NCBI GenBank assembly: GCA_944324845.1
Contig: CALUXX010000005.1
Span: 62,001-126,000 of the forward strand
DNA: 64,000 nt
Direction of reading: 5' to 3'
Source: Candidatus Gastranaerophilales bacterium
Lineage (GTDB): Bacteria; Cyanobacteriota; Vampirovibrionia; Gastranaerophilales; Gastranaerophilaceae
The position numbers and the translations under genes are program-made. Position 1 is the first letter of the stretch. Every line of letters begins with the position of its first letter. Shown one piece after another: positions 5,881 to 64,000 of this stretch. The notes under the pieces were generated by a model. It ran no database searches. It saw nothing but the letters and a program-made list of their open reading frames with translations, and was not told where the DNA came from.

Positions 5881-5927
5881 AAAATCCTAAAATGTTTAAT
5901 TCGGTTAAATGTTTTAGGATTTTTTTT
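5881..5927 (+). terminator. Rho-independent terminator after the DUF1858 gene
   Basis: AAAATCCTAAAA (5881-5892) pairs perfectly with TTTTAGGATTTT, and an inner TTTAA/TTAAA pair extends the stem, with a T-run at 5920-5927. It lies inside the longest open frame of the next gene, which argues that that gene starts downstream of it. Confidence 0.85.
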
Positions 5928-5975
5928 GTGTTATTATTATATAGGTCTAATAGTTTAGGAGTTAGTAATTTAGTT

Positions 5976-9602
<3,627 letters not shown>

Positions 9603-12737: not shown

Positions 12738-13484
12738 ATGTCAGATTCATTAAGTGTTAACACAAATTTTCAAAACGGATTTAAGTTTCCGTTGGGTAAT
12801 AATTTTAATTTTACGTCTAATTTCAACAATCCGTTAGCTTCAGGAACAAAAAATAATAATTCTTTATTTGGACCATTACAGTCAAGTAATACTTACAGTA
12901 ATGATTTTATGATGTCAGGTTTTGATTTTAATTCGCTTTCTTATGATGAAAAAACAGGAACAATTTTCCAACAAAAACCTGTTCAGGATAACAAAGTTCA
13001 AACATCTACAGCTCAGAAAAATAATGCAGGAGTTTTGAATTTTTCATCTGAACCTTTGCAACAAACAGGTACAAGTTCATTGACGGGAAATGTTTCTTCT
13101 CAAGAACCTAATTTTAGTGAATTGAATAATTATTTAACAAAGCAAGAAAATGCCCAACAACCTACCCCATCTAATATTGGTAAGATAGCAGGTGCGGCAG
13201 TCGGTTTTAGTGCTCCTATTGCAGAAAGAGTTGTTGCAGGGTTGAAAAACGGTTCTGTTATTAAGGCGCTTAATTGGAAACAACTTGCGGTAACTTGTCC
13301 GATTATCGCACTTGCCGGTTATGGTGTAGGATTTTTGGCTGATAAGATTATAAATTCTGTTAAAGGTGTTAAGCCTCAAGTTCAAACAACTGATACGCAG
13401 CAAACAAATACTCAAGTTCAAAATACACAAACTCAGCAAGTTCCTTTACAAACACAATATAAGCCGTTGCAAATTGCTGCATAG
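12738..13484 (+). CDS. Orphan protein with Asn-rich N-terminus and Gln/Thr-rich C-terminus
   Basis: A 248-residue protein with three parts. About 140 N-terminal residues are Asn/Ser/Phe rich and probably disordered. A central segment (about 147-210) has two moderately hydrophobic helices (IGKIAGAAVGFSAPIAERV and TCPIIALAGYGVGFLADKI) that could associate with or cross a membrane. The C-terminal tail is made of repeated TQ/VQ units. There is no signal peptide and no recognised domain. It has its own copy of the bipartite promoter, and GGGG precedes the start. The layout resembles other orphan membrane proteins here. Function unknown. Confidence 0.7.
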   Translation: MSDSLSVNTNFQNGFKFPLGNNFNFTSNFNNPLASGTKNNNSLFGPLQSSNTYSNDFMMSGFDFNSLSYDEKTGTIFQQKPVQDNKVQTSTAQKNNAGVLNFSSEPLQQTGTSSLTGNVSSQEPNFSELNNYLTKQENAQQPTPSNIGKIAGAAVGFSAPIAERVVAGLKNGSVIKALNWKQLAVTCPIIALAGYGVGFLADKIINSVKGVKPQVQTTDTQQTNTQVQNTQTQQVPLQTQYKPLQIAA

Positions 13485-61707: not shown

Positions 61708-63297
61708 TTATGCAGCGATTTTATTTTCTTGTTTTTTAGCTTTTGCTTTTGTTAGTTTGGCGTTTACCATAGGTAATAAATAACCTAGTGTTATGCCTGA
61801 ATATAACAAGCCTGAAATGTGGGCAACGTTTAATTTCCATAGATTTTTCTTTGCAAAGGCTGCACCTTTTGCGGCTATTTCTGTATGTGTTTTTAGATTT
61901 ACGTAATTTAGCCAATGTTTCAAACCTTTACCCGGTTTTGAGATATTAAACAAGTTTTCTTTCTTTCTATCAAGCAAGTTTGCTACTCCTTTTGCAGCAA
62001 AGCCGCCAAATACCAGCCAGTTTAGAAATCCGAAATAATCACGTGTTACAGATTCTCTTAATTCTGTTTCGTTATCTGATGCCATAAATCGACCTACGAT
62101 ATTTGCGGCATATACGGTTTTTATTGCATTTCCGCTTGTTACTGGTCCGGTGAATTGAAGTTTTCTTACAAAGTCTTTAGGGCTTTTTACTTTCATAACT
62201 CCAATTACCATTGCTACCATACCAATACTTGCTGCAAGTTTTTTGAAGAAGAAGGATTTGTTTTTATTATTGGTTTTATCTTGTTGTTGGGTTTTAGTTT
62301 CTGCAGGTGTTTGGGTTGCTGTTTTTGTTTCGTAATCTACATCACCTACAAATCCTTTTTTACCTGTACGTTTTTCTGTTAGTTTTCTGTTGATGTATTG
62401 GTTTGTTAATCCTAAAATTGATGCTCCCGTTAGCGCTCCGAAGATTTTAATTTTATTGATTTTTGCGATTTTAGTCAGTGCTTTATCTACATCAATATTT
62501 TTATTGGTGAAAATATCTTTACCCATGTCATAGGTATCTCTTAGGATAATTTCGAGTTTTTCATTCCAAGTTTTTCCGTTTACATTTACGGTTAAATATC
62601 TGTTTGCTCCTAATGCGTTTGTTAATCTGGTTTCTGCTATTTTTAAGATGTTATTTTTGTCTTCTTTGGCAATGGTTTTATCATTAATTATTTCGGTCAT
62701 TGTTTTGATAAAACCTTCTTTTGTTTTTAGTGTTTGTGGTGTGTGTTTGTATTTCTCGTTTCTCCAAGTTATATATGTCCAAGAATTTTCATCTACCCAT
62801 TTTACGTCTTTCCAATTTATTTCTGAAAATTTATTTATTTTTGCTCCGTCTTGTCCGCTTAAATTTTCAAAAACATTTTTTACATAATTTGTTGTATTAT
62901 TATCAGAATTTTTCCAAGCATTATGTAATGTTTTTACTGCATCTTCGCTAAACCAAGTGTTTGGACGAAGTTCAACTTCCGGCATTATTTTATTGGTTAT
63001 CATACGTGATATTCCATATGCTAAAAGCCCTGCTGATAAACAGTTAATAAAGGTTCCGCAAATTTCTCTGAAAAATGTTTCAAATCCGGCATCTTTATTT
63101 CTGTGTTTTGCATCGTAATAGGTTCTTGGTCCAACCATTGCGCCTAAGTCTATTAAAACTGCATTTGCCATTTCGTTAGTATCTAAGCTTCTTAATGCTC
63201 CGGTTAATATTCCATCCATTGCACCTTTAAATTGTGGGTTAATGTTAGTTCTTTGTCTGGTTTTTGTATTTGTATAATTATTTATTGTTAAGTCCAT
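61708..63297 (-). CDS. Lineage-specific membrane protein behind an attenuator-like leader
   Basis: The 529-residue protein starts at ATG 63297 with GGAAAG upstream. It begins MDLTINNYTN, with an FKG motif (INPQFKGAM) near residues 19-27. It has several hydrophobic regions: FINCLSAGLLAYGISRMI, KIFGALTGASILGLTNQYI, AASIGMVAMVIGVMKV and VAHISGLLYSGITLGYLLPM. Between them are charged loops and a Gln/Thr-rich linker (near residue 325). The C-terminus is Lys rich. No domain is recognised. The upstream region contains a leader ORF and terminator. The style resembles the proteins at 1-726 and 1166-2101. Confidence 0.75.
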   Translation of the reverse strand: MDLTINNYTNTKTRQRTNINPQFKGAMDGILTGALRSLDTNEMANAVLIDLGAMVGPRTYYDAKHRNKDAGFETFFREICGTFINCLSAGLLAYGISRMITNKIMPEVELRPNTWFSEDAVKTLHNAWKNSDNNTTNYVKNVFENLSGQDGAKINKFSEINWKDVKWVDENSWTYITWRNEKYKHTPQTLKTKEGFIKTMTEIINDKTIAKEDKNNILKIAETRLTNALGANRYLTVNVNGKTWNEKLEIILRDTYDMGKDIFTNKNIDVDKALTKIAKINKIKIFGALTGASILGLTNQYINRKLTEKRTGKKGFVGDVDYETKTATQTPAETKTQQQDKTNNKNKSFFFKKLAASIGMVAMVIGVMKVKSPKDFVRKLQFTGPVTSGNAIKTVYAANIVGRFMASDNETELRESVTRDYFGFLNWLVFGGFAAKGVANLLDRKKENLFNISKPGKGLKHWLNYVNLKTHTEIAAKGAAFAKKNLWKLNVAHISGLLYSGITLGYLLPMVNAKLTKAKAKKQENKIAA

Positions 63298-63331
63298 TTT
63301 CTTTCCGTTCCCAATATTTCTGAATACTAAA

Positions 63332-63355
63332 AAAGTCCCGTTCATACGGGACTTT
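63332..63355 (-). terminator. Attenuator hairpin before the 529-residue gene
   Basis: On the minus strand AAAGTCCCGT pairs with ACGGGACTTT around a four-base loop, followed by Ts, in front of the coding start. Its left arm can instead pair with CGGGACTTT at 63413-63421 in the leader ORF. This is the mutually exclusive fold of an attenuator. Confidence 0.7.
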
Positions 63356-63401
63356 AAAAATCTTTATTTAGGTATAATTTAAAAGTTTATAAATTCACAC
63401 A

Positions 63402-63476
63402 CTAAAAACTACAAAGTCCCGATTTTGAAACTTTGGTGGAGGAGGAGCCTGTTGTTGTTAATGTGTAATTAAACAT
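63402..63476 (-). CDS. Candidate 24-residue Thr/Ser-rich leader peptide
   Basis: An ATG at 63476 with AAGGTAG upstream opens a 24-codon frame ending TAG. Thr is at positions 5, 7, 8, 9 and 14, and Ser at 11, 12, 13, 17, 19 and 23. The three serine codons at 11-13 are all TCC and Thr14 is ACC; both codons appear uncommon in this AT-rich DNA. Codons 19-22 encode the antiterminator strand. Such a frame would be translated only as a regulatory sensor. Confidence 0.55.
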   Translation of the reverse strand: MFNYTLTTTGSSSTKVSKSGLCSF

Positions 63477-63505
63477 ATCTACCTTCATTCTATTATTACA
63501 TTTGT

Positions 63506-63535
63506 AGAATATCATAATTGATTAAAATTTGTCAA
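63506..63535 (-). promoter_or_regulatory. Promoter of the attenuated transcript
   Basis: On the minus strand TTGACA (63535-63530), 18 bases, TATTCT (63511-63506). The start of transcription would fall near 63499, about 23 bases before the leader ORF. Confidence 0.6.
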
Positions 63536-63557: not shown

Positions 63558-64000
63558 TTATACGGTTTCTTCCGGTGTTTTTAAAATTGTTTCATATTTA
63601 TCCAAATTTTCAAGTATTTGGTTAACTTTTTCTTCATCTACTGCTTTTTTTGTGACTATGTCATTATCTAATTTTGCTTGAACTGCCATTTTTAATATTT
63701 CAGGCATATTTATTGCTGTTGGTTTTTTGCTTGACAAATTGTCATAATAATCTTGTTCATAGTCTTTATTTATTCTAAGTTTCCAATTATTATCATTTTC
63801 GTGTCCGCCAACATTGTAGGTTTTATCTATTCCGAAAAAGTCTGCAAATGATATTTGTACTCTTTTGTGGGTGTAAAATAATTCCGCAAATTTTGCTTTA
63901 ATTCGTTCTGAATCATCTTGTGCTATTTTTTTACAAAACTCGTCACGTTCTATTTTTCGTTCAGGATTTGAGTTTAGTAATCCCGCTAAGTATAAAGGAT
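63558..64000 (-). CDS. malQ: 4-alpha-glucanotransferase, C-terminal part (partial)
   Basis: A frame is open from the right edge to a TAA at 63558-63560, giving 146 residues of the C-terminus. VQISFADFFGIDKTYNVGG followed by NNWKLRI near the middle is the conserved MalQ/DPE end (compare ...FGI..TYN.PGT...NW.LR...). A helical tail follows (AVDEEKVNQILENLDKYETI). It is the second GH77 gene of the window and looks closer to standard MalQ than the anchored one at 5976. Confidence 0.8.
   Translation of the reverse strand, partial: PLYLAGLLNSNPERKIERDEFCKKIAQDDSERIKAKFAELFYTHKRVQISFADFFGIDKTYNVGGHENDNNWKLRINKDYEQDYYDNLSSKKPTAINMPEILKMAVQAKLDNDIVTKKAVDEEKVNQILENLDKYETILKTPEETV

Follow-up and report, generated by a model that had tools for sequence, protein, structure and literature searches.

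A putative serine- or cysteine-responsive leader-peptide attenuator ahead of an orphan membrane protein in Gastranaerophilales

The leader and its surroundings

The window, i.e., the whole stretch of 64,000 nucleotides analyzed here, is part of contig 5 of a 1.96-Mb Gastranaerophilales genome. Close to one end of it, a short leader with its own promoter precedes a gene for a predicted membrane protein (Table 1), and a gene resembling 4-alpha-glucanotransferase ends at 63558, ~200 bases upstream. A sequence-only reading of this region had proposed a leader-peptide attenuator, consisting of the promoter, a 24-codon frame, a TCC run, segments 1-3 that pair in exclusive ways, and an extra segment 0, and each of these elements lies on the minus strand where it had been placed. 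The frame, MFNYTLTTTGSSSTKVSKSGLCSF, contains five Thr and six Ser. Both hairpins, 63355-63332 (10 pairs) and 63435-63412 (9 pairs), were detected by a scan, and a T-run follows the terminator stem; shuffles of the region gave 0.2 terminator-like sites.

Table 1. Minus-strand features of the leader and of the gene behind it, in window coordinates.
Feature	Position	Strand	Support or remark
Sigma-70-type promoter, TTGACA-N18-TATTCT	63506..63535	-	-35 TTGACA in 87/90 related loci
Shine-Dalgarno-like AAGG and leader start codon, AAGGTAGATATG	63474..63485	-	AAGG from 63485
Leader peptide frame MFNYTLTTTGSSSTKVSKSGLCSF, 24 codons and stop	63402..63476 (ATG 63476)	-	Ser/Cys-run frame in 79/80 related loci
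Regulatory codons TCC TCC TCC (Ser run; Cys run in other members)	63438..63446	-	
Segment 0, 5' arm of protector hairpin 0:1 (classical segment 1)	63427..63435	-	9-pair hairpin 63435-63412 and covariation
Segment 1, CGGGACTTTG, partner of 0 or 2 (classical segment 2)	63412..63421	-	Pairing and covariation
Segment 2, AAAGTCCCGT, common to antiterminator 1:2 and terminator 2:3 (classical segment 3)	63346..63355	-	
Segment 3 and T-run, ACGGGACTTTTTT, intrinsic terminator 3' arm (classical segment 4)	63329..63341	-	
Controlled gene, 529-aa predicted membrane protein, GGAACGG ahead	61708..63297 (ATG 63297)	-	

The leader resembles the attenuators of the trp, his, thr, and leu operons in its short frame of regulatory codons and in its protector, antiterminator, and terminator, which follow in the same order and geometry. 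However, those attenuators control biosynthetic operons, whereas the leader described here carries a Ser or Cys run and precedes a predicted membrane protein. Hairpin 0:1 begins immediately after the regulatory codon run, and an AU-rich spacer lies before terminator 2:3. Because this layout is that of segments 1-2-3-4 in the trp and his leaders, segment 0 takes the place of the classical protector arm: its pairing with segment 1, as first proposed, is confirmed, but it is an integral arm of a conserved hairpin rather than the extra element for which it had been taken.

Conservation, covariation, and predicted folding

The orthologs and close paralogs that were inspected in an initial whole-genome set have the promoter, the short frame, and the downstream hairpin, and their short frames carry at least three consecutive Ser or Cys codons. 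The comparison was extended to the 80 nearest loci in named genomes, which are metagenome-assembled, largely from gut and rumen, and many of which are titled Gastranaerophilales or Melainabacteria. When these relatives were searched for a hairpin kept behind a lost frame, which the sequence-only reading had named as evidence against itself, the leader frame with its Ser or Cys cluster and the hairpins were found together at 79 of the 80 loci, most of them by automatic scan and four by inspection (L113, with TSSNCS; L140, with SSNSS; and L129 and L138, each with a run of four Cys, the latter starting with GTG). The sole locus without a leader frame, L096, retains a promoter-like TTGACA box, and its protein contains 5.4% Ser. 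The leader start codon lies only 4-9 nt past the -10 box in 35 of 90 related loci, which suggests a leaderless leader ORF in these cases. The remaining loci, including that of the window, have a 5' UTR, with a Shine-Dalgarno-like motif in 44 of the UTR-bearing relatives.

A covariance model of the leader, run against 59 genomes, gave strong matches (E 1e-11 or better) only at the controlled gene family, with at most two per genome, and the weaker matches inspected were without a Ser- or Cys-run leader frame. Upstream neighbors vary between genomes, the largest common neighbor cluster being present in 14 loci; the gene neighborhood thus gives no functional clue, and the leader and its gene form a self-contained promoter-leader-gene cassette. 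The same data bear on another explanation, namely that the hairpin terminates the upstream gene and the open frame arose by chance. The glucanotransferase-like gene does end ~200 bases upstream, but the leader stays with the downstream gene while the upstream neighbors differ, and the promoter and frame are themselves conserved, so that this explanation is already contradicted by the conservation data and has next to no chance of being correct.

It is also conceivable that the switch operates at the RNA level, through a riboswitch, a T-box, or a protein bound to the C-rich run, with translation of the frame not needed. The preference for TCC, which yields a CUCCUCC tract, would fit such a switch. 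However, UGU/UGC runs replace this tract in the Cys types, nearly all loci retain the frame, and no Rfam family reached its gathering score in the window; the best weak match (SL1) scored 23 bits where 75 are needed, and we regard the weak matches as chance and reject a T-box or known riboswitch leader. An RNA-level switch is consequently rated as very unlikely.

Compensatory changes, which the attenuator proposal had called for in segments 1-3, are present in all three helices. In a MAFFT alignment of 46 Ser-type leaders, the paired fraction is 97.8% for terminator 2:3, 87% for antiterminator 1:2, and 80% for protector hairpin 0:1, and these helices contain 29, 19, and 10 double-change cells, respectively, against shuffle means of 4.5, 7.4, and 3.1; since MAFFT misaligned a few rows, the antiterminator and protector figures are lowered rather than raised. 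Sliding the pairing partners abolishes the pairing signal of all three helices. For the segment 1:2 duplex, 90 loci were also processed mechanically to extract the terminator and the leader portion that follows the run. Cognate arms have a mean energy of -13.75 kcal/mol, whereas combining arms from different species gives -10.75 ± 0.24 kcal/mol, and none of 5000 permutations reached the cognate value. Co-varying segment pairs include CGGGACTT/AAGTCCCG, CGGAACTT/AAGTTCCG, CGGGGC/GCCTCG, CGAGACTT/AAGTCTCG, and AAGAACTT/AAGTTCTT. Covariation therefore backs the mutually exclusive antiterminator and intrinsic terminator that define an attenuator, together with a protector hairpin that covers the 5' arm of the antiterminator and adjoins the regulatory codons.

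These pairings also bear on whether the product of the short frame is a small functional peptide, rich in Ser or Cys, and the hairpin an ordinary terminator that follows it. In favor of such a peptide, the frame is conserved and is equipped with a promoter and start signals of its own. Outside the run, however, both the length and the sequence of the leader peptide vary freely, and the codons at its C-terminal end track the base pairing. In addition, a plain terminator has no need for segment 1 to follow segment 2, and a large gene of one family always lies downstream. We therefore consider a functional peptide highly improbable. As judged from the kept frame, Ser or Cys run, promoter, and pairings, the leader unit in the window and its relatives is far beyond chance, and on comparative grounds we regard the attenuator as real.

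Folding of the window leader is consistent with the switch that had been proposed, in which a ribosome at the leader stop favors termination and one stalled on the Thr/Ser codons favors readthrough. Without a ribosome, hairpin 0:1 and the terminator are predicted. Masking a ribosome at the leader stop leaves the terminator, whereas a masked ribosome holding the first TCC in its A site shifts the prediction to the 1:2 antiterminator. If the A site holds the third TCC, the terminator remains the minimum at equilibrium, and the outcome of such a stall would hinge on whether 1:2 forms before segment 3 is synthesized.

We infer that the leader is translated and that it responds to starvation, as follows. 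When charged tRNA-Ser is ample, the ribosome would reach the leader stop and cover segment 1, and 2:3 would terminate transcription. In the case of no ribosome, 0:1 would hide segment 1, and termination would be expected too. In a shortage of charged tRNA-Cys or of charged UCN-reading tRNA-Ser, the ribosome would stall on the run and cover segment 0, which would free segment 1 to form 1:2 and allow RNA polymerase to enter the gene. Overall, we give a probability of roughly 0.85 to ribosome-mediated transcription attenuation built on the classical four segments, with serine as the amino acid sensed, or cysteine in related members.

The amino acid probably sensed

Thr and Ser codons together had originally been proposed as the signal. 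The Ser run is indeed conserved, with Cys in its place in other members, but Thr is not, its positions being occupied by Asn, Lys, Ala, or Ser in relatives. Among 88 distinct leader-bearing proteins, 66 have a Ser run and 22 a Cys run, the latter including a paralog clade, and all Ser types fall in one clade of the protein tree, so that a single change divides them from the Cys types. The Ser runs consist of TCC (182), TCA (112), TCT (10), AGC (4), TCG (2), and AGT (1), i.e., AGY accounts for 5 of 311 codons, compared with a Ser codon usage in the window genes of 5% TCC, 45% TCA, 21% TCT, and 25% AGY. Cys runs mix TGT and TGC. This synonymous variation, together with the replacement of the whole run by Cys, indicates selection on the amino acid and not on the RNA letters. 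The signal sensed is thus likely to be Ser, or Cys in other members, and not Thr.

A single tRNA-Ser was detected in the genome scan for each of the anticodons GGA, UGA, and GCU. TCC is strongly favored over TCT in the runs, although the GGA-anticodon tRNA should read both and TCT is far more common in the genome.

Precedents exist for both features of the runs. During serine starvation in Bacillus subtilis, ribosome density rises at UCN but not at AGC/AGU codons, and also at Cys codons, the latter having been linked to the synthesis of Cys from serine (PMC3862929); this accounts for both the avoidance of AGY and the interchange of Ser and Cys. The serine codon sensor of sinR works on the same distinction among codons, but there the codons lie inside the regulated gene and translation is lowered, whereas in Gastranaerophilales they belong to a leader and are expected to increase transcription (PMC3862929). 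Serine starvation also elicits a response from an engineered his leader with UCA-UCA (PMC4046918), which relies on tandem UCN codons for attenuation, as proposed for the present leader, although it is a laboratory construct and not a natural leader.

Cys-codon runs are also known from the poly-Cys leaderless short ORFs of mycobacteria, first proposed in PMC4633059 and described as cysteine-responsive attenuators (Canestrari 2020, as cited in PMC9094748). The 35 of 90 Gastranaerophilales leaders that start within 9 nt of the -10 box share this leaderless character. As far as the mycobacterial ORFs are represented in that citing paper, the Gastranaerophilales leader differs in belonging to another phylum, in its clear intrinsic terminator/antiterminator pair, and in the use of Ser by most members. 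We did not assign the window leader to the type summarized there, in which a Cys-run frame ahead of sulfur genes begins with the first transcribed base, as the window leader has a UTR and a Ser run and its target is no known sulfur gene.

A full-length phosphoglycerate dehydrogenase is absent from 11 of 16 Ser-type genomes, compared with 3 of 13 (Fisher p 0.025), but this tie to the Ser type is only suggestive, since the comparison is weakened by relatedness and by incomplete genomes. In genome G000 (~99% complete), no full-length phosphoglycerate dehydrogenase (TIGR01327) scored above the cut-off, and cysK is present.

The same attenuator mechanics could also serve a different signal, such as the state of the tRNAs or a general slowing of translation, e.g., the ms2i6A37 modification or an antibiotic. 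The ms2i6A37 modification is common to tRNAs reading U-starting codons (UCN Ser, UGY Cys). Both sets of regulatory codons begin with U and AGY is nearly missing from the Ser runs, as a signal of this kind would predict. However, other U-starting codons (Phe, Tyr, Trp, and UUR Leu) form no runs, and depletion of the product in exactly Ser or Cys, as described below, is a better fit to amino-acid supply. Avoidance of AGY is also expected from selective charging (PMC1183508) and from the B. subtilis data (PMC3862929). We therefore consider such a signal unlikely and retain amino-acid shortage as the preferred cue.

The controlled protein and its composition

The controlled protein has no family in Pfam, NCBIfam, or PDB sequence searches, its gene matches no recognizable Ser or Cys gene or known sulfur gene, and a viral library and phage records likewise gave no match. 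The family averages about four hydrophobic segments. An AlphaFold2 model (pLDDT 82, pTM 0.82) gave no Foldseek match at E 0.001, and a fold search with the C-terminal half alone reached Z 4.4 at best. A likeness to membrane pyrophosphatase was rejected, as the best match (VIA, Z 5.8, rmsd 5.3 over 187 residues) is at chance level for helical proteins. Of 292 genomes sampled from the phylum, 120 carry the protein family if distant paralogs are counted, and every one of these belongs to the window's order.

Several further observations concern more distant members. On contig 1 of G000 (210643-213853; L142 and L158), superfamily paralogs of 562 and 577 aa lie in tandem without an attenuator; paralogs of this kind also occur in tandem in other genomes, and those inspected have no Ser/Cys-run leader. 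Locus L147 of genome G042, from a different family of the order, has a leader frame in which QQQQQQ is followed by FCCLRFC; a terminator and a 31%-identical member lie downstream, hinting at a more distant Cys-type variant. Separately, an F-x-G or FG motif was noticed by eye near residues 15-40 of the products of window genes 1166-2113, 5892-7997, 12738-13484, and 61708-63297. These stretches are N-terminal and poorly conserved, and are perhaps a shared N-terminal signal of the order.

The composition of the protein varies with the type of its leader. Ser-type proteins contain 4.35% Ser and 0.60% Cys, and Cys-type proteins 7.27% Ser and 0.14% Cys (0 to 2 Cys residues per protein); leaderless paralogs have 7.02% Ser and 0.59% Cys, so that depletion in each type is confined to the amino acid of its own leader run. 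For neighboring genes, the values are 5.8-6.1% Ser and ~1.4% Cys. When all twenty amino acids are contrasted between Ser and Cys types, Ser has the lowest p value and Cys the largest ratio, although p values from sequence counts overstate independence because one evolutionary change separates the types. The depletion is one evolutionary contrast, yet it is kept across 66 and 22 distinct sequences. The product is thus poor in the sensed amino acid, as expected of a protein made during its shortage. Enrichment of AGY serine codons in the gene body was dropped as evidence, as leaderless paralogs are nearly the same (0.346 vs. 0.377).

Textbook examples of natural leader-peptide attenuators exist for several amino acids; to our knowledge, none is known for serine, and our literature search for serine leader attenuators returned only the engineered example. 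A natural serine attenuator that is interchangeable with cysteine and controls an orphan membrane protein therefore appears to be new. Ser and Cys are metabolically linked amino acids. At slightly less than even odds, we propose that Gastranaerophilales have a dedicated response to Ser/Cys shortage, based on an order-specific membrane protein family that is turned on by a Ser- or Cys-run attenuator and purged of the limiting amino acid, in which the amino acid sensed was exchanged once in evolution. Candidate activities of this protein are uptake, scavenging, and envelope adaptation, and it could represent a novel type of protein for the uptake or salvage of serine/cysteine.

Homologous leaders that carry Ser in one clade and Cys in another, with matching depletion of the product, constitute a readable record of co-evolution between a regulator and its target. 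Taken together, the leaders and the composition of the proteins point to an unstudied membrane protein that would be made when serine or cysteine runs short. Assigning this physiological cue to an otherwise unreadable membrane protein makes its function testable in a group of little-studied gut bacteria.
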